Positions 43,393-57,416 of a stretch of DNA of 64,000 nt are shown here, piece by piece. The stretch spans positions 62,001 through 126,000 of the forward strand of contig JAGXHI010000056.1 in the NCBI GenBank assembly GCA_024636295.1, in the 5' to 3' direction. A model generated the notes under the pieces. It was not told the origin of the DNA. It made no database searches and saw nothing but the letters and a program-made list of their open reading frames with translations. Origin of the DNA: Desulfuromonadales bacterium. GTDB taxonomy: Bacteria; Desulfobacterota; Desulfuromonadia; Desulfuromonadales; JAGXHI01. Both the position numbers and the translations under genes were made by a program. Positions within the stretch are counted from its first letter, which is position 1. Every line of letters begins with the position of its first letter.

Positions 43393-43420
43393 TGTGGTAA
43401 TTGTTTGTTGCAAGTGCAAC
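43393..43420 (+). promoter_or_regulatory. Shared bipartite motif, site A
   Basis: TGTGGT (43393-43398), 8 bp, GTTGCA-AG-TGCAAC (43407-43420), a perfect inverted repeat. It is 75 nt upstream of the 47-aa gene at 43495. The same arrangement occurs at 45381-45408 and 50377-50403. Confidence 0.6.
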
Positions 43421-48371: not shown

Positions 48372-49760
48372 ATGCTCAAGTCCAGCAACCCTCTGAATGG
48401 TCCTTACAAGTCCGAAATGAAACATCTCGTCCCCTTTTCCCGGGACAGCCAGGACGCAATGGGAACCATTCTGAACAGTGTCGCTGACGGAGTCTTCACG
48501 GTCGATGAAAGTATGAGGATCACCTCATACAACCGTGCCGCCGAGGAGATTACGGGATTCACTTACGAAGAAGCCATAGGCCGCCCCTGTTATGACATCT
48601 TTCGCACGAACATCTGTTTTTCGGCATGCCCGGTCAAAGAAGCTCTCGAATCAGGGGGGCCGGTTATCAATCGCGAGGTGGATATCGTCTCCAAAGACAA
48701 CCGAAAAGTACCCATTTCCGTAAGCGCTTCGGTTCTTCGCAACTCCGAAGGGACTCCCATCGGCGGGGTGGAAACGTTTCGAGATCATTCCCTGATTCAC
48801 GCGCTGAAAAAGGAAATCGAAAAGAAATATACCTTCAAGGACCTTGTGAGCCGCAATCCTGCCATGAGACGCCTGTTTGATGTGATGCCGGATATTGCCG
48901 CCAGTGAGGCGACCGTTCTGCTGCGCGGCGAAAGTGGAACAGGAAAAGAGCTTTTCGCCCGGGCGATTCATGCCCTGAGTCCTCGCCGAGACGGTCCCCT
49001 TGTGGTGGTCAACTGCGGCGCCCTGCCCGAGCCACTTCTGGAGGCGGAAATTTTCGGAGCCCGGCGCGGAGCCTATACAGGGTCGGTGGAAAATCGACCG
49101 GGTCGTCTGGAGATGGCCTCGGGGGGAACCCTTTTTCTCGATGAAATCGGCGATCTGCCGCTTCCCCTGCAGGTAAAACTTTTGCGGGTTCTCGAAAATC
49201 TGGAGTATCAGGCTCTGGGGGCCCGAGATTCCCAGAAGGCGGACGTGCGTTTTCTCGCTGCTACCAATTGCGATCTGGAAGCGAAAGTCGAGGAGGGATC
49301 CTTCAGGCGTGACCTGTTCTTCCGCATCAATGTAGTGGCCCTTCAGATTCCGCCCCTTCGGGAACGGCGGGAAGACATTCCTCTGCTGATCGACATTTTT
49401 CTCGACCGATTGAACCGGACTTATGGAAAGAAGATCCGGGGAGTTTCAGCCGAGGCGCTCCAGGTTCTTCTGAGCTATGATTTCCCGGGAAATGTCCGGG
49501 AGCTGCTGAACCTTATGGAGCAGACCATCATCCTGTGCAAGGGAGGCGAAATCACACTTGAGCACCTGCCGACGGATTTTCTCGGCACGCAGAAGATTCA
49601 GGCCAAGGTCGCCTCTTCAAATAAAGAGGCGATCACAAAAAGATTCATCACTGAACTTCTGGAGCGCCATGACGGCAACCGCACAAAAGTCGCCAGGGAG
49701 CTGGGCGTGGACAGGACGACCCTGTGGCGCTGGATGAAGAAATTCGATCTCCTGTCCTGA
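48372..49760 (+). CDS. Sigma54-dependent activator with Cys-bearing PAS domain
   Basis: A 462-aa enhancer-binding protein. A PAS domain (about residues 30-140) has Cys73, Cys82 and Cys86 (GRPCYDIF, NICFSACP). The AAA+ domain follows with GESGTGKE (186-193), a GAYTGS loop (233-238) in place of GAFTGA, and GGTLFLDEIG. A Fis-type HTH ends it (TKVARELGVDRTTLWRWM). No receiver domain is present, so signal input is likely direct, by redox state or a bound ligand. It is the last gene of the NrfD-like operon and a paralogue of the protein at 56061. Confidence 0.88.
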   Translation: MLKSSNPLNGPYKSEMKHLVPFSRDSQDAMGTILNSVADGVFTVDESMRITSYNRAAEEITGFTYEEAIGRPCYDIFRTNICFSACPVKEALESGGPVINREVDIVSKDNRKVPISVSASVLRNSEGTPIGGVETFRDHSLIHALKKEIEKKYTFKDLVSRNPAMRRLFDVMPDIAASEATVLLRGESGTGKELFARAIHALSPRRDGPLVVVNCGALPEPLLEAEIFGARRGAYTGSVENRPGRLEMASGGTLFLDEIGDLPLPLQVKLLRVLENLEYQALGARDSQKADVRFLAATNCDLEAKVEEGSFRRDLFFRINVVALQIPPLRERREDIPLLIDIFLDRLNRTYGKKIRGVSAEALQVLLSYDFPGNVRELLNLMEQTIILCKGGEITLEHLPTDFLGTQKIQAKVASSNKEAITKRFITELLERHDGNRTKVARELGVDRTTLWRWMKKFDLLS

Positions 49761-50376
49761 ATCCCGTTTTTGCCGTTCTCTTTCCTCCAGACCCACTCTT
49801 TTCTTCTAAGAAAAAGATCTTCAGCCAATCTGGTCCTTTCCTGCATTCATTCTCAAAGCTCCAAAGCTCGCCTGTTCCGTCGGGATTCAGTATGCCTCCG
49901 GTACGGCTCTCCCCTTCACGCTGAATAAATTTCAGGCGAAATGGTGCTGCGACTCGATAAACACGGCGAGCCGTCCATGATTTTTTCGCCAGGCCGAAAA
50001 TTCCTCTCCTTTCCCGCAAAATAAATCGAGGGCTCTCTCCTTCCTTTTTAAAACGTTGTAATCGCAATGATCCCATCAATCTGTAAGTAACTCAATCGCA
50101 AGGACTAATCCCCCTCTCCACTGAAGACGGGAGATGATGACCGGTTTGAAAATCGCCTCTTCCCCTGAGCTTTCCTCCTAGCGTGGGAGAGGTGATGTTT
50201 CATACCCCGAGCTAATACATAACGTATTTTTAAAAAAGGTTGCATGTGCTGCAGTCCATTTGACCTGTTGCATATGTTGCATTAGTTGCATCCGCGCCAA
50301 CTGTTGCAGGGTCTATTGCAACAGTTGTAAGTACCTAAATTTTAAAGATAAAAAGCAGCTCTGCAGCATTGTTTCG

Positions 50377-50403
50377 TGTGGTGTCGATGGTTGCATTTGC
50401 AAC
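50377..50403 (+). promoter_or_regulatory. Shared bipartite motif, site C
   Basis: TGTGGT (50377-50382), 7 bp, GTTGCA-TT-TGCAAC (50390-50403), a perfect inverted repeat. It lies about 100 bp upstream of the sigma54-like element at 50502, a usual distance for enhancer-binding sites. Confidence 0.6.
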
Positions 50404-50501
50404 ATTTCAGGGGTGCATCTGTTGGCACGCGTCGGCAGTCTTTTATTGTAAGAGCTTGTATTCAAGGGCAAATATCCGGTTTCTACTGCAGCATTACGGG
50501 A

Positions 50502-50517
50502 TGGCACGAGTCTTGGA
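50502..50517 (+). promoter_or_regulatory. Sigma54-like promoter candidate
   Basis: TGGCACGAGTCTTGGA: a perfect -24 half (TGGCACG) with the correct 10-bp spacing to GG at 50515-50516, where the consensus has GC. 39 nt before the start at 50556. Confidence 0.45.
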
Positions 50518-50555
50518 ATAAAGGAAATTACAATTTGCAAGAAAAGGAGAAATGA

Positions 50556-50897
50556 ATGGGCGCGAAAACCGCACTCCCTGAAAAGATCAAAGTGGCCGTC
50601 CCGTTTTACGGATGCCTGTTCCGCCCCGGAAAGGGTATGGAGAAGATTTACTTTGTGGTGGAGGTGGAGCGGAACTCAGGGTCCTATGGGAAGGTGTCTC
50701 TTCAGATCTGGAATTCCGGGGAAGAAGGGGGTCTCGTTCATTGGTTGAGCAGGCAAAAAATTCAGGGTCTTGTGTGCAGTGATCGGCATAAGGGTTTTGA
50801 AACCGCTTTGCTCCGAAATGGTATCCGGGTCTGCTGGGGATCCGAGGGGGAGTTGGAAGAAATGATCGCCTTCTGGAATCGGGCGCAGGCGGCTTGA
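50556..50897 (+). CDS. NifX/DiNase-like protein, divergent
   Basis: A 113-aa soluble protein. KIKVAVPFYGCLFRPGKGME at the N-terminus and the later LSRQKIQGLVCSDRHKGFETAL, ending EEMIAFWNRA, follow the fold pattern of the dinitrogenase iron-molybdenum cofactor (NifX/NifB C-terminal) family, more weakly than the next gene. AAGGAGA lies 7 nt before the ATG. First gene of a tightly packed run of nine. The metal-cluster ligands of true NifX are not obvious. It might carry an Fe-S or other metal cluster for the cytochrome complex (inference). Confidence 0.55.
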   Translation: MGAKTALPEKIKVAVPFYGCLFRPGKGMEKIYFVVEVERNSGSYGKVSLQIWNSGEEGGLVHWLSRQKIQGLVCSDRHKGFETALLRNGIRVCWGSEGELEEMIAFWNRAQAA

Positions 50898-50918: not shown

Positions 50919-51350
50919 ATGAGAGTGGCTGTCACCGCACGAGGGATGGATCCGGAGGAAGAAATCGACCAAAGATTCGGACGGGCCTACTGGATCCTGA
51001 TCAACGATGAAAAAAAGAATACATGGGAGGCCCTGGACAATGCCATCTATCGAAACAGCAGGGAAAGTGCCGGTGTCAAATGTGCGAGACGGCTGGTTGA
51101 AAGAGATGTGAAAATCCTCCTGACTGGAGAAATCGGACCCAAGGCCCTGAGGATCCTCCGGGAAGGGGGGATTCGGGTCTTCATAGGAGGCGAGGGAAGC
51201 ATAGAGGAAGTGATTGAAGCATGGCGACGGGATCTGCTGAAGGAGGCTGCAGGTGCGAACTGCACGGGAAGCCCTGATTGCCTGGTGGGAAAATTCAGAC
51301 TACGGGCGGAGGAAAGCCTTGGCTATCCCCGATTGGAAAAAACCTACTGA
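50919..51350 (+). CDS. NifX-like (dinitrogenase FeMo-cofactor family) protein
   Basis: A 143-aa protein. Residues 1-110 match the family well: MRVAVTARGMDPEEEIDQRF, then FGRAYWILI, KCARRLVERDVKILLTGEIG and LREGGIRVFIG. The last 30 residues add CTGSPDC. Such proteins bind metal-sulfur clusters. No nif genes are in the window, so the role is unlikely to be nitrogen fixation. GCAAAGGAGACATC before the ATG is a clear ribosome site; the gene follows its neighbour by 21 nt. Confidence 0.8.
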   Translation: MRVAVTARGMDPEEEIDQRFGRAYWILINDEKKNTWEALDNAIYRNSRESAGVKCARRLVERDVKILLTGEIGPKALRILREGGIRVFIGGEGSIEEVIEAWRRDLLKEAAGANCTGSPDCLVGKFRLRAEESLGYPRLEKTY

Positions 51351-51365
51351 GAAAGGATAGACGAC

Positions 51366-51509
51366 ATGAGAGCCGAAAACATCAGGACAAACCCGAATGG
51401 AAGAAAACAGTTGAACGTGATCCTGCTGGCGATGGGGGTCATGGCGGCTTCTGCAAGCGCCTGGGTCGCGTGGCCCGCTCTCATCCATCTGAGTGAAAAA
51501 TTCATTTGA
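51366..51509 (+). CDS. Small membrane protein, 47 aa (family A, copy 1)
   Basis: Begins MRAENIRTNPNGRKQLNVIL and has one membrane helix followed by WVAWPALIHLSEKFI. GAGAAAGGATAG lies upstream. Same length as the proteins at 51748 and 43495; the copy at 51748 shares MKxEN[IL], LN.IL, WVAWP.L.HL.EK and the terminal I. Function unknown. Confidence 0.7.
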   Translation: MRAENIRTNPNGRKQLNVILLAMGVMAASASAWVAWPALIHLSEKFI

Positions 51510-51544
51510 ATGGGGGACAGAACACCTATTTACGGGAGGAGATC

Positions 51545-51706
51545 ATGAAAGCGGAAAATCTGACCAGTCAACCGATGAAGGCAACCTATAAGGCAGGAGT
51601 GTACGGAACCCTCGGCTTAATTGCCATGTTCCTGGCCTTTTTCATCGCGTGGTCTTTGGCATGTCTGGGTGGCGCCTTTCTGGACCTGGTCAGTCCGTTT
51701 TTCTGA
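51545..51706 (+). CDS. Small membrane protein, 53 aa (family B, copy 1)
   Basis: ATG 51545 has GGGAGGAGATC upstream. Begins MKAENLTSQPMKATYKAG, with one long helix and the signature AWSLACLGGAFLDLVSPFF at the C-terminus. It resembles the 53-aa protein at 51938 throughout and the 74-aa protein at 41849 in the helix. Function unknown. Confidence 0.7.
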   Translation: MKAENLTSQPMKATYKAGVYGTLGLIAMFLAFFIAWSLACLGGAFLDLVSPFF

Positions 51707-51747
51707 TCCGGAAAATCCGGGTTGCCCCTTGAGACGGAAGGTGGCCC

Positions 51748-51891
51748 ATGAAACAGGAAAATCTGGTTTCAGGGAAAAGGGAGAGCAGATATCTGAATGC
51801 GATTCTCGCAATATTGGGTGCGGCAGCCGTTCTGATAGGTACCTGGGTAGCTTGGCCGGTGCTGCTGCACCTTGGAGAGAAAATCATCTAA
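51748..51891 (+). CDS. Small membrane protein, 47 aa (family A, copy 2)
   Basis: Begins MKQENLVSGKRESRYLNAIL, then a helix and WVAWPVLLHLGEKII. GACGGAAGG lies upstream. With the next gene it repeats the A-B order of 51366 and 51545, so the pair arose by tandem duplication. Confidence 0.7.
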   Translation: MKQENLVSGKRESRYLNAILAILGAAAVLIGTWVAWPVLLHLGEKII

Positions 51892-51937
51892 GAACCCTCA
51901 TTCACGGGTATACCCGCGGCAGAAAGAAAGGCACCCC

Positions 51938-52099
51938 ATGAAAACGGAAAATATACATTCAGATCCATTCATAAGGGCTTACAGAGCCGGAGCATTTACC
52001 GCTATCGGAATCATCGGGTTCTCAACCTTCTCCTTTGCCCTCTGGTCGTTGACCTGTCTGGGGAGCGCCTGTCTGAATGCAATTTTAGGCTTTATCTGA
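51938..52099 (+). CDS. Small membrane protein, 53 aa (family B, copy 2)
   Basis: Begins MKTENIHSDPFIRAYRAG, followed by a helix and LWSLTCLGSACLNAILGFI. AGAAAGG lies upstream. Same length as copy 1 at 51545, and the same N-terminal MK.EN[LI] motif as the family A proteins, which suggests a common ancestor or a common binding partner for that motif. Confidence 0.7.
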   Translation: MKTENIHSDPFIRAYRAGAFTAIGIIGFSTFSFALWSLTCLGSACLNAILGFI

Positions 52100-52232
52100 A
52101 AAAAACCTACAAACCAACGGAAGAAGGTATGAACTCAAGAAAATTGGTGAAAAAAGGAAGAAGATAAGAAGGATTTTTTTTGTCCTCGTCTCCAAACAGT
52201 CCATGAAATCGGACTTTTGGAAAGGAAGAGAA

Positions 52233-53018
52233 ATGGCTGAAGGTGAAGGGCGGCAGGTCGGAAAAATCGGAAAAGAGGATATTTTCTGCCCCTTCTGCGG
52301 AAATTCCAGAATTTATCTTTTAGGGGATGGAAGGCGCAGTTGTGGCGCATGTCGGAAGAAATTCACCCCGGGGCCGAGAAAACAACGCCTGCCCGAAGAC
52401 CTCCATCAGGATATCATTCGCGAATTCTGGCAAATGTCTACCGCTGAGCATGGGGCGAATATTCTCGGGCTGAACCGCAAAACGATGCAGAGGCATTACT
52501 CGGCTCTGCGTTCACTGATGGCGGAGGAAAACAGAAGAGCTCTGGAAAAATGGCTGAAAGAAATGAGTCAAAGGGAGGCCGGGGAGCCAATCCCGCCGGA
52601 ACGAGGTTTCTGCCCTTGCATTCCAGATAACCTGAAGGTTTTCTGCATGGTTGCGGATCGGCAGAGAATATTCGTTCTTTTCCCAAATGAGGTCCGCCTG
52701 ATGGAACGTTGCTCCATTCCCGGCCATCTGCCCTGCGCTTCGATTTATGCCGGGAGCCCGGCAAGTCGAAGGGGACTTGTCCTCGATGATTTTCATCAGC
52801 AGATACCCAGATCCGGTTCTCTTGTGAACAAAGAGGGGCCCGGGATGCTGGGGCACTTCTGGATCTTTTCCAAATACAGGCTTAAGAGGTATCGGGGAGG
52901 GGTAAAGAGAAATTTCGAGCTGTTTATACGAGAGATGGAGTTCAGATTCAACTGCCAGACGGAGGGAAAAGGATGCGAATGGCTGGTCGAACTGCATCAA
53001 GGCGGAACCATTACATGA
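52233..53018 (+). CDS. IS1595-like transposase homologue without catalytic acids (probable domesticated DNA-binding protein)
   Basis: A 261-aa protein. ATG 52233 has AAGGAAGAG upstream; an ATG 30 nt earlier lacks one. An N-terminal zinc ribbon (CPFC at 19-22, CGAC at 37-40) is followed by an HTH (LGLNRKTMQRHYSAL) as in IS1595 transposases. The C-terminal part aligns with the IS1595 DDE domain end: GHFWIFSKYRLKRYRGGVKR and FELFIREMEFRFNC. The expected acidic positions are lost: the DES motif region reads PPERGFC, YSDG reads YAGS, and the NGIE..FW Glu is Gly in GMLGHFW. It sits inside an operon with no terminal repeats seen, so it is probably a regulator or scaffold, not a mobile element. Confidence 0.7.
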   Translation: MAEGEGRQVGKIGKEDIFCPFCGNSRIYLLGDGRRSCGACRKKFTPGPRKQRLPEDLHQDIIREFWQMSTAEHGANILGLNRKTMQRHYSALRSLMAEENRRALEKWLKEMSQREAGEPIPPERGFCPCIPDNLKVFCMVADRQRIFVLFPNEVRLMERCSIPGHLPCASIYAGSPASRRGLVLDDFHQQIPRSGSLVNKEGPGMLGHFWIFSKYRLKRYRGGVKRNFELFIREMEFRFNCQTEGKGCEWLVELHQGGTIT

Positions 53019-53037: not shown

Positions 53038-55032
53038 ATGAAAATCTGGCGTCTTTTACCTGTTGTGCTGCTGTTGTGGGTTGGCGTGTCGGCGGCCGAG
53101 GCCCGAACCGGCCTGGTTCCCGACCCGGGCACCTGCCTGGAGTGCCATGAGGGCGTCGTCGACGCGGATGGATTCGCGGAATCCGTCCACGCGCGCAATG
53201 GCTGCACGAGCTGCCACGTCGAAATCACCGATCTCGACCGCCACATGGAGGGCGAAATCGCGATTGGGGAGGTTAACTGCGCTCGCTGTCACGACACCGA
53301 AGCGGTGGAGCATTTCGCCGGTATCCATGGTGAGATGGGCATGGGCTGCACGGAATGTCATACCGATATTCACGTCCGGCAACTCTGGGATGGAAAAAAG
53401 GAAACCGCAGTAGCCACCTGCATGCAGTGCCATGAAGCGGATGATTATCAGAATTCCGTTCACGCGCAGTCTTTGTTTGCGGGAAACGAAGATGCGCCGG
53501 CCTGTCACGACTGTCATGGACTTCACACGGCACGGGCGACCGTCGGACGAACGGACCGGGAAGCGGGTGCCTTTCGGTCCGAGGCATGCATCCAGTGCCA
53601 CCAGAATGAGGAACTCATGGCCGAAAACGGCGTGTATCCCCATGCGGTGGAAACGTACCTGGAGAGCTATCACGGAAAAAGCTACGTTCTCGGTTTTCCG
53701 GAAAGGGCGGCGGGATGCGCGGACTGCCACGGGGCGCATGGCGTGCTGCCGGAAGAAGATCCGGCGTCCACCCTCCATGGTGAAAATCGCGTCGAAACCT
53801 GCGGGTCCTGCCATCCTGGGGCAACCCTGCAATTTACGAAATTCTTCGCCCATGGCGATCATTCGGACAGTGAGCATTATCCCATTCTCTACTGGACCTT
53901 TCTGGGAATGACCGGGCTCCTGATAGGGACCTTCGGAATCTTCTGGCTGCATACTCTTTTCTGGATGTTCCGCGGATTCGTTGAAAATCGTCAGAAAATC
54001 AAATTCCGGATGCAAGAGCCGGAAACCGAAGAAATTGTCATGGAAGCGGCTTTTGCGGGATCGGATGAAGGGACCGGAGCGAGACCGATGATCATGCAGT
54101 CGGTCGCAGTGCAGGACAGCCCCGGAATGGTGGCCGCCGGGCCGACAATGACGGCGGGTGCGCATGCCGTCGTGGACAATCCGCACAAGCTGTACAGGCG
54201 GTTCGAAATGAGACACATTCTGCTGCACCTGACGGTCATCATCAGCTTTCTCGGTCTGTCCCTGACCGGCCTGCCCCTGAAGTTCAGCGCTGAACCCTGG
54301 GCCAAAGCAATGATGTCCTTCTACGGCGGCGTCTACTACGCAGGTTTGATTCATCGAGCATGTGCCATCCTGACCTTCTACTACTTCCTCGGGGCACTGA
54401 TCATGAGCGTTGATTTTCTGTTTGTCCGCAAGGACGTGAGAACCATCGGAGGCCACCGCGCGCACTGGTTGCAGCGGCTCTTCGGCCCCGACTCCCTCAT
54501 GCCGAATTTCAAGGATCTGCGCGATATCCAGGGAATGATCCGGTGGTTTTTCTTCCGGGGGCCCAAGCCGACCTTTGAAAGATGGACCTATTGGGAGAAA
54601 TTCGACTTCCTGGCGGTCTTCTGGGGGATGTTTGCCATCGGCGGCTCGGGGCTGCTCCTCTGGTTTCCCGAATTATTCGGAAGCTTTCTCCCCGGCTGGA
54701 TGTTCAATGTGGCCACCATTGTCCATTCGGATGAGGCCCTTCTGGCCACCGGCTTTATTTTCACGGTCCACTTTTTCAATACCCATGGACGCCCGGAAAA
54801 GTTCCCCATGGATTTCGTCATTTTCAATGGTGAAATGAGCAAGGAGGAATTCATCGAGGAACGGGGCGATCAGTGGAAGCGGTACGAGCAGCTGGGGATG
54901 ACCGAAGATTTCGAGGTGACAAGGCCGAGCGGAGTTCTCTACGACTTCCTTTTTAAGGGGTTTGGATTCCTGGCGCTGTTCACCGGTCTGGGACTTGCTT
55001 TCCTGATGTTCCTGGCTTTTGTAAGAGGATAG
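53038..55032 (+). CDS. cbcL: Nonaheme cytochrome c fused to a b-type cytochrome membrane domain, CbcL-like
   Basis: A 664-aa protein with a signal peptide (1-22), nine CXXCH sites between residues 33 and 259 (CLECH, CTSCH, CARCH, CTECH, CMQCH, CHDCH, CIQCH, CADCH, CGSCH) and a C-terminal membrane part. The latter has a helix near 283-310 and, from about 392 on, further helices with conserved His of a HydB/formate-dehydrogenase-gamma type cytochrome b561 domain. Geobacter CbcL has the same nine-haem plus b-type make-up and oxidises menaquinol during low-potential metal or electrode respiration. A loop of about 80 residues (310-390) between the parts is polar. The gene follows the transposase homologue by 19 nt. 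Confidence 0.87.
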   Translation: MKIWRLLPVVLLLWVGVSAAEARTGLVPDPGTCLECHEGVVDADGFAESVHARNGCTSCHVEITDLDRHMEGEIAIGEVNCARCHDTEAVEHFAGIHGEMGMGCTECHTDIHVRQLWDGKKETAVATCMQCHEADDYQNSVHAQSLFAGNEDAPACHDCHGLHTARATVGRTDREAGAFRSEACIQCHQNEELMAENGVYPHAVETYLESYHGKSYVLGFPERAAGCADCHGAHGVLPEEDPASTLHGENRVETCGSCHPGATLQFTKFFAHGDHSDSEHYPILYWTFLGMTGLLIGTFGIFWLHTLFWMFRGFVENRQKIKFRMQEPETEEIVMEAAFAGSDEGTGARPMIMQSVAVQDSPGMVAAGPTMTAGAHAVVDNPHKLYRRFEMRHILLHLTVIISFLGLSLTGLPLKFSAEPWAKAMMSFYGGVYYAGLIHRACAILTFYYFLGALIMSVDFLFVRKDVRTIGGHRAHWLQRLFGPDSLMPNFKDLRDIQGMIRWFFFRGPKPTFERWTYWEKFDFLAVFWGMFAIGGSGLLLWFPELFGSFLPGWMFNVATIVHSDEALLATGFIFTVHFFNTHGRPEKFPMDFVIFNGEMSKEEFIEERGDQWKRYEQLGMTEDFEVTRPSGVLYDFLFKGFGFLALFTGLGLAFLMFLAFVRG

Positions 55033-56060: not shown

Positions 56061-57416
56061 TTATTGCGGATGAATCTCCATCTGCTTGAGCCACCGCCAG
56101 ACTGTTGTGCGATCCACATTAAGTTCCTGGGCGACCTGGCAGACTTTCCCCTCATGACGGTTCATGATCCGGTTTAAAGCGTCAATCGAGGGTCGTTTGC
56201 TGCGGTGGGAGACATCATTTGCCGATACGGCATGAGCTTTGACCAACTCCGGTGGAAGGTGTTCCACTTCAATTTCGTCCCCTCGGCAGAGAATCATGGA
56301 CCGTTCGATCACATTGTACAATTCCCGTACATTTCCCGGAAAATCATGACTCTGGATAATGCGGCAGGCTTCCGGGTGGATCCCTTCGATATTTTTTTTG
56401 AGGACCTTGTTGAAATGTGTACGGAAAAGATTCCCGAGAAGGGGGATGTCCTCCCGGCGCTGGCGAAGAGGTGGAATGTCAAGCGAAACGACCTTGATGC
56501 GGAAATAAAGATCTCGGCGAAATGAGCCGTTCGCAACCATCGATTCGAGGTTGCAGTTGGTAGCTGCGAGAAACCTTACATCGGCTTTTCTGGGATTTTT
56601 GGCGCCCAGAGGCTGGTATTCGTGATTTTCCAGAACCCTCAGCAGCTTTACCTGCAGTGGCAGGGGGAGATCTCCGATTTCATCCAGAAGAAGAGTCCCG
56701 CCTTCGGCCATTTCCAGACGTCCCGGGCGATTTTCCGTCGCATCGGTGTACGCCCCTTTTCGAACGCCGAAGATTTCCGCCTCCAGCAAAGGCTCGGGAA
56801 AAGCGCCGCAATTGACCACCACGAGAGGTCCGTCCCGACGGGAGCTCAACTGATGAAGGGCCCTGGCGAAGAGTTCCTTGCCGGCTCCGCTTTCACCCTG
56901 GATGAGAACGGTTGCTTCGCTGTCCGCGATGTCCGGAAGAATTTCGAAAAGACGTCGCATGCCGGGATTGCGGCTTACTATGCCGCAAAAGGCATATTTT
57001 TCCGAAATCCGTACATCGGGAGAAGAGCTCCGTGAGAGATTTCGAAAAGTCTGGACGGCACCCAGCATTTTTCCGGTACCGGAAAAAAGGGGTGCTGCAC
57101 TGACGGATACGGGGACTTTTCTGTTTTGACTGTTTTGGATATCGTATTCAGAGACTACGGGATGGCCTGAATCCATCGCCTCCTGGATTGGGCAGTCGCC
57201 ATCGCAGTTGAAAGAGCGAAACGCTTCAAAGCAGAATTTTCCGACAAGCTGCTCCATCGGAAACCCGGTGAGGTCTTCGGCGGCATGATTCGCGTAAGTA
57301 ATTCGGCGACTCCGGTCCACCGACAGGACCGCATCGGCGGCACATTCAAAAATAAGCTTCAGATCTTCTAATGGTTCGAATCGTTCCGGCATGGTGGAGG
57401 AGTTCCTCCTTTTCAT
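56061..57416 (-). CDS. Sigma54-dependent activator with Cys-bearing PAS domain and GAYTDA loop
   Basis: A 451-aa paralogue of the activator at 48372. PAS (about residues 15-125) with Cys62, Cys71 and Cys75 at identical spacing (KFCFEAF, FNCDGDCP); AAA+ domain with GESGAGKE (174-181), loop GAYTDA (221-226) and GGTLLLDEIG; C-terminal HTH (CQVAQELNVDRTTVWRWL). The Asp at the fifth position of the GAFTGA loop, which touches sigma54, is unusual. The two HTH recognition regions are nearly the same (DRTT[LV]WRW), so both may bind the same sites. It has its own sigma70-type promoter at 57452-57480. Confidence 0.88.
   Translation of the reverse strand: MKRRNSSTMPERFEPLEDLKLIFECAADAVLSVDRSRRITYANHAAEDLTGFPMEQLVGKFCFEAFRSFNCDGDCPIQEAMDSGHPVVSEYDIQNSQNRKVPVSVSAAPLFSGTGKMLGAVQTFRNLSRSSSPDVRISEKYAFCGIVSRNPGMRRLFEILPDIADSEATVLIQGESGAGKELFARALHQLSSRRDGPLVVVNCGAFPEPLLEAEIFGVRKGAYTDATENRPGRLEMAEGGTLLLDEIGDLPLPLQVKLLRVLENHEYQPLGAKNPRKADVRFLAATNCNLESMVANGSFRRDLYFRIKVVSLDIPPLRQRREDIPLLGNLFRTHFNKVLKKNIEGIHPEACRIIQSHDFPGNVRELYNVIERSMILCRGDEIEVEHLPPELVKAHAVSANDVSHRSKRPSIDALNRIMNRHEGKVCQVAQELNVDRTTVWRWLKQMEIHPQ

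Follow-up and report, generated by a model that had tools for sequence, protein, structure and literature searches.

The window, i.e., the whole stretch of 64,000 nucleotides of Desulfuromonadales DNA that was analyzed, carries a gene designated dTnp, which codes for an IS1595-type transposase that has almost certainly lost catalysis and been domesticated; the gene and the features surrounding it are listed in Table 1. The frame 52233–53018 is intact, in agreement with the preliminary description of this DNA, which had also correctly placed the gene 19 nt from the CbcL-like gene. Its start at 52233 has a good Shine–Dalgarno sequence (GGAAGAG); a longer ORF starting at 52203 has none and begins within the candidate operator. 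The protein encoded downstream contains nine CXXCH motifs and a weak match to the formate dehydrogenase gamma-type b-domain, and it thereby shows the fusion of a multiheme c-type part with a b-type membrane part by which CbcL is recognized. CbcL homologues were found in 91 of the 136 genomes of the order.

Table 1. Genes, protein segments and putative regulatory elements at the dTnp locus (positions in the window).
Feature	Position	Strand	Remark
PAS + sigma54-interaction + Fis-type HTH enhancer-binding protein	48372..49760	+	co-occurs with dTnp
GTTGCA/TGCAAC repeats with palindrome GTTGCATTTGCAAC (50390–50403)	50239..50410	.	likely enhancer sites for the sigma54 activator
sigma54 promoter of the module, TGGCACG-N4-TTGGA	50502..50517	+	
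NifX-like (dinitrogenase FeMo-co domain) protein 1	50556..50897	+	first gene past the sigma54 promoter
NifX-like protein 2	50919..51350	+	
Four single-TM peptides (47–53 aa), two alternating types	51366..52099	+	conserved in sister operons
T-run TTTTTTTTGT	52174..52181	+	ends 16 nt before the candidate operator
Candidate operator AGTCC-ATGAAATC-GGACT (AGTCC-N8-GGACT)	52198..52215	+	inner left IS end remnant; CC-N8-GGAC geometry of the L035/L041 TIRs
dTnp gene (domesticated, catalytically dead IS1595-type transposase, almost certainly)	52233..53018	+	261 aa
dTnp zinc-ribbon core CPFC...CGAC	52287..52352	+	
dTnp helix-turn-helix	52395..52511	+	residues 65–103 of the 271-aa frame
dTnp degenerate DDE/RNase H remnant	52575..52853	+	D1 strand missing from model, D2 changed to YAG, E lost
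dTnp conserved C-terminal block FWIFSKYRLKRYRGG...FELFIREMEFRFN	52857..52952	+	
CbcL-like fused nonaheme c/b-type inner-membrane cytochrome	53038..55032	+	invariant downstream partner

NifX/NafY-like proteins with a FeMo-co domain head the cytochrome operon here, with two copies, and in nearly all sister operons, with one or two. The single-transmembrane peptides belong to the types ...VAWPxLxHLxEKxI and ...WSLxCLGGAxxxLxS..., both of which are kept in loci L021, L024, and L036–L040, and they may represent small subunits in the CbcL-type complex. Enhancer repeats followed by a sigma54 promoter are the classical layout for an activator of the kind encoded upstream of them; most of the orthologous operons show it ahead of their first gene and have a related PAS/sigma54 activator close by. 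In L026, the repeats read TGTTTCACCTGAAACA instead, which would fit co-evolution of the activator with its site. GTTGCA-N2-TGCAAC palindromes occur in the window at 50390 and 43407 (43407–43420), and a second PAS/sigma54 activator (56061–57416, minus strand) matched the same sister-locus orthologues as that at 48372–49760. The region 50239–50520, which had been put forward as DNA bound by dTnp, is probably not a target of this protein: judging from its sequence, it is better explained as an enhancer and a sigma54 promoter, which fit the neighboring activator and leave no need for dTnp, and 52198–52215 appears to be the better candidate operator.

The closest active relatives found were L035 (MAG JAHEOG) and L041 (MAG JAKQCT), both containing EVDESYFGG, VYSD, and HINGIENFW, and the tree placed the window protein beside them. 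The resemblance of the zinc ribbon, HTH, and C-terminal ending to IS1595 transposases, reported earlier, was confirmed against these relatives: the identity between the window protein and L035 was 50% in the zinc ribbon and HTH and 75% in the C-terminal block, but 23% in the DDE core. The corresponding values for its orthologues (group A) were 37–51%, mostly 47–75%, and 8–23%, whereas in distant active IS1595 transposases it was the DDE core that was well kept (49–51%), the reverse of this pattern. Among Pfam families, Zn_ribbon_IS1595 (PF12760) alone was matched, with 19.9 bits against a cut-off of 25.4, and DDE_Tnp_IS1595 was not matched; despite the sub-cut-off score, all zinc-ribbon cysteines are kept, as is the fold. 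Comparison by hhalign of the genuine IS1595 transposase L032 with a profile of eight orthologues gave a probability of 99.4% over 193 columns. Searches of solved structures with dTnp, by sequence and by fold, returned unrelated zinc ribbons only; no relatives were found in viral contigs, and a viral fold search returned one uncharacterized 225-aa protein. It should be noted that the IS1595-type element of L035 (4809–5690) looks active: each of its ends has inner direct repeats of GGACC, and there is a TTAATCT-like target duplication. A second copy of it is present in L046 of the same MAG.

The IS1595 family has the DDE signature E-DESYFG ... VYTD ... HINGIENFW (PMC12561309). The replacement of all three acidic catalytic positions in dTnp, as claimed in the preliminary description, was evident in the alignment with L035 and L041, in which D1 (EVDES) corresponds to a deleted or replaced stretch, YSD is changed to YAG at D2, and NGIENF is changed to GMLGHF with loss of E. 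In the group A orthologues, the D1 region is likewise deleted or replaced, D2 occurs only sporadically (YAD in L020 and L023), and E is found in one divergent member, by chance. Structure prediction, suggested earlier as a check of this loss, gave a consistent picture: in the AlphaFold models of the window protein and the active relative (mean pLDDT of 82 and 77), the relative has a canonical first strand with D1 (residues 121–129), whereas the window protein retains the zinc ribbon and HTH but has a long helix (92–124) across the D1 region and no D1 strand, its first core strand being formed by residues 145–152. Set against the features of the IS1595 family (PMC8101967, PMC12561309), dTnp shows the family homology and the N-terminal zinc ribbon present in most groups, but the DDE residues are missing, as they are in the orthologues save for scattered single residues, and so are terminal inverted repeats on both sides. 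No 8-bp target duplication was found around the gene, there being no element ends to flank. Thus, dTnp clearly derives from an IS1595 insertion sequence yet is not a member of this group of mobile elements, since it has neither the DDE residues nor a pair of ends nor a target duplication.

Orthologues in the same operon context, for which a search had been recommended, were found in 19 Desulfuromonadia genomes at 20 loci, each time directly 5′ of a CbcL-like gene, with a gap of −14 to +53 nt and an identity of about 30%; the hosts are bacteria of the metal-reducing type, and those with names include Desulfuromonas, Geobacter, and other Geobacteraceae MAGs. In the CbcL tree, dTnp was present in 16 of 16 copies that grouped together and absent from all 20 others, which fell into other clades. 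Twelve CbcL loci without dTnp (11 loci and the second CbcL copy of the window's genome) contained no NifX-like gene, no related sigma54 activator, and no GTTGCA/sigma54 promoter region, and several of them follow ATP synthase genes instead. The dN/dS ratio, drawn from few close pairs, was 0.16 overall for the closest pair, L038/L039; the zinc ribbon and HTH (0.07) and the C-terminal part (0.06) had lower values than the middle (0.32), as would be expected if selection maintained binding to DNA and the fold of the C-terminal part while the catalytic core drifted. The domestication proposed in the preliminary description is strongly supported: 19 genomes share the operon position, the gene is under purifying selection, and it is linked to one CbcL lineage. 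The loss of catalysis, purifying selection, and a fixed locus across species that define a domesticated transposase are all found here, and catalytic death followed by domestication can be regarded as close to certain.

The active L035 element is bounded by AGGGATCGGACCATCAGgtaGGACC and AGGGATCGGACCATCAGtccGGACC, and the ends of L041 have an identical CC-N8-GGACC spacing; active ends read GGACC-N8-GGACC or CGTCC-N8-GGACC. A bipartite site, WCC-N8-GGACY, was found just 5′ of the dTnp coding sequence in 23 of 29 loci versus 0.33 expected from the same loci, or in 14 of 17 clusters (45% protein identity) versus 0.18 expected. Columns outside the search pattern (C before GGAC and A after WCC) were informative as well, whereas most flanking columns were not. 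Each of ten scanned operons contained exactly one coding-strand site of the CC-N8-GGAC type, directly before dTnp, and none was present in 11.8 kb of sequence preceding CbcL genes without dTnp; the site was degenerate or absent in L188, L190, L197, L022, L199, and L043. The earlier statement that there are no terminal inverted repeats therefore holds in part: neither a right-end remnant near dTnp nor a flanking inverted-repeat pair around it was found, but the core of the left end is retained at 52198–52215. The simplest explanation for the retention of this piece would be that dTnp still binds it. A genome-wide search with the site pattern in the window's own genome and eight relatives revealed no enrichment over the reversed control; since no regulon was visible, only local action of dTnp can be argued.

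The site also has a regular position relative to transcription signals. In group A, it starts about 14–19 nt past a T-run, most often 15–17 nt, the run usually being TTTTTGTGC. At most of these loci (L024, L026, L037–L040, L187–L190, and L198), the T-run follows a hairpin with an energy well below that of shuffled sequences, and the stems differ in sequence among loci. In L021, L036, and the window, this hairpin is weak or missing; the structure predicted before the site in the window is not a convincing terminator (MFE of −3.8 versus −2.8 for shuffled sequences), and therefore no terminator is claimed there. In group B, a second set of dead homologues (L027–L031 and L199–L201), the site lies 33–36 nt downstream of a TATAnnnTA motif in seven of eight loci. 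In both contexts, the constant distance between the site and a transcription signal suggests transcriptional autoregulation.

Group B genes, which represent a sister group, are located among genes for tungsten-type aldehyde ferredoxin oxidoreductase (AOR), ThiF, MoaA, and MOSC proteins and are often divergent from a small conserved protein. All dead homologues formed one clade (85/97) apart from active IS1595 transposases, and the monophyly of group A relative to group B was not settled by the protein tree. The divergently encoded protein (121–148 aa, no Pfam match) was identified at L027:8347–8793, L030:8492–8935, L031:9157–9522, and L200:1534–1899, and the motif GTATACGRTAA is conserved in the intergenic region that it shares with the group B dTnp gene. 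In Geotalea sp. SG265 (L043:7950–13794), a dead IS1595-type protein is encoded between HipBA and an operon of rve/Mu-C (TnsB-like), TniB, and TniQ, i.e., in the context of a Tn7-like element, and the CC-N8-GGAC site is absent. A degenerate homologue from another class of the phylum (L245:6044–6769), in which D1 is apparently kept and D2 and E are lost, has a third gene context.

According to the reading preferred here, with a probability of about 0.68, dTnp is a domesticated DNA-binding protein that acts as a local autoregulator at the candidate site 52198–52215; its role as a DNA-binding regulator is supported indirectly by the conserved zinc ribbon and HTH together with the TIR-derived site upstream. 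An ancestral IS of the L035/L041 type would have lost its DDE chemistry and right end while keeping the zinc ribbon, HTH, C-terminal block, and left-end core. The protein would most likely bind the left-end site WCC-N8-GGACY just 5′ of its own start and, when bound, would set the output of the tightly coupled dTnp–cbcL pair in cis, presumably through a change in transcription, inside a module switched on by the sigma54 activator. Because the site lies at a near-constant distance after a T-run, usually that of a predicted terminator, the most natural mechanism would be a roadblock or a modulation of termination acting on polymerase arriving from upstream; this is speculative and is offered tentatively, and its effect could be of either sign. 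A wider proposal, possible but doubtful at present, is that members of this dead IS1595 family were recruited into two or more unrelated redox operons (for CbcL-type respiration and for AOR/molybdopterin) as autoregulators with the left IS end as operator; in CbcL operons, where the operator would lie at a set distance past a terminator, the bound protein would tune terminator read-through as a roadblock or an anti-terminator switch. It counts against autoregulation by dTnp that the activator already controls the module, so that a second regulator is not strictly needed. The loci with a degenerate or absent site, the weak hairpin in the window, and the lack of a visible regulon count against it as well.

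Several other explanations were weighed against autoregulation. A functionless relic of a recently inactivated IS copy would agree with the missing right end, and an intact frame can persist briefly after catalytic loss; however, same-position orthologues with about 30% identity in so many genomes, a low dN/dS that is lowest in the zinc ribbon/HTH and C-terminal parts, and an upstream site retained amid diverged flanks leave this explanation virtually no weight, and conserved synteny with purifying selection refutes it in practice. A dominant-negative repressor, blocking transposition of related active ISs by occupying their TIRs, is in keeping with the conserved DNA-binding part and the TIR-type site, by which an IS end is probably still recognized. 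This role in IS defense was nevertheless rejected as very improbable: a DDE_Tnp_IS1595 search of the window's genome (assembly 87% complete) gave no match, no active relative of the L035 type was found in the class search, and neither the linkage to one CbcL lineage nor a site before the protein's own gene would be explained.

A functional protein without a role in transcription, namely, a cytoplasmic accessory for the synthesis, insertion, or maturation of the CbcL-like protein or for the TM-peptide/NifX-like module, would account for the nearly fused position before cbcL and for a C-terminal block constrained as much as the DNA-binding part, and strict co-inheritance with one CbcL lineage fits a partner protein too. 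This is unlikely, although worth keeping in view, since it leaves the TIR-type upstream site and the conserved zinc ribbon and HTH unexplained, and the same family with the same site occurs in the unrelated AOR/molybdopterin context. It could also be argued from the location of the CC-N8-GGAC site within the dTnp leader, near the T-run or terminator, that it is the target of another protein or an mRNA leader element, with dTnp regulating something else. This seems quite improbable, as the site has the geometry found in the TIRs of the most closely related active transposases, accompanies dTnp in operons of two unrelated types, and is missing where there is no dTnp.

The cytochrome concerned is an inner-membrane protein of a type that serves low-potential electron acceptors outside the cell, and the proposal about its control is directly testable, involving one protein and one 18-bp site. 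It also provides a recipe for finding further cases, which is to look in conserved operons for dead transposases preceded by a conserved half-TIR. In the literature searched, which covered few subscription journals, neither a bacterial IS1595 domestication nor a classic DDE transposase of a bacterial IS that regulates an operon and uses its own IS end as the operator was found. Transposase-derived regulators are well known in eukaryotes. Among bacteria, the TldR proteins are RNA-guided transcription factors derived from TnpB; they are comparable to dTnp, for which regulation is a proposal, in that a transposon-encoded nuclease has turned into a regulator, and they differ in belonging to another protein family and in being guided by RNA, whereas dTnp is proposed to act as a protein through a zinc ribbon/HTH and a TIR-derived site (PMC13418256). 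Protist proteins with the Merlin/IS1595 domain have lost the DDE motif, and their domestication was suggested by the authors; these proteins are eukaryotic and have no known operator, whereas dTnp lies in a bacterial operon and has kept an IS-end site (PMC8101967). The downstream partner of dTnp resembles CbcL of Geobacter sulfurreducens (GSU0274; PMC5585712) in being an inner-membrane cytochrome of the fused c/b type, but it belongs to a separate lineage located in a sigma54/activator module together with dTnp. The active IS1595 family itself (PF12760 and PF12762; ISXO2-like; L035 and L041 in public MAG contigs) shares with dTnp the zinc ribbon, HTH, C-terminal EMEFRFN block, and IS-end core CC-N8-GGAC upstream of the gene. 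Unlike these active elements, dTnp has no DDE residues, D1 strand, right end, or target duplication, and it is present as one copy with a fixed operon position in different genera.
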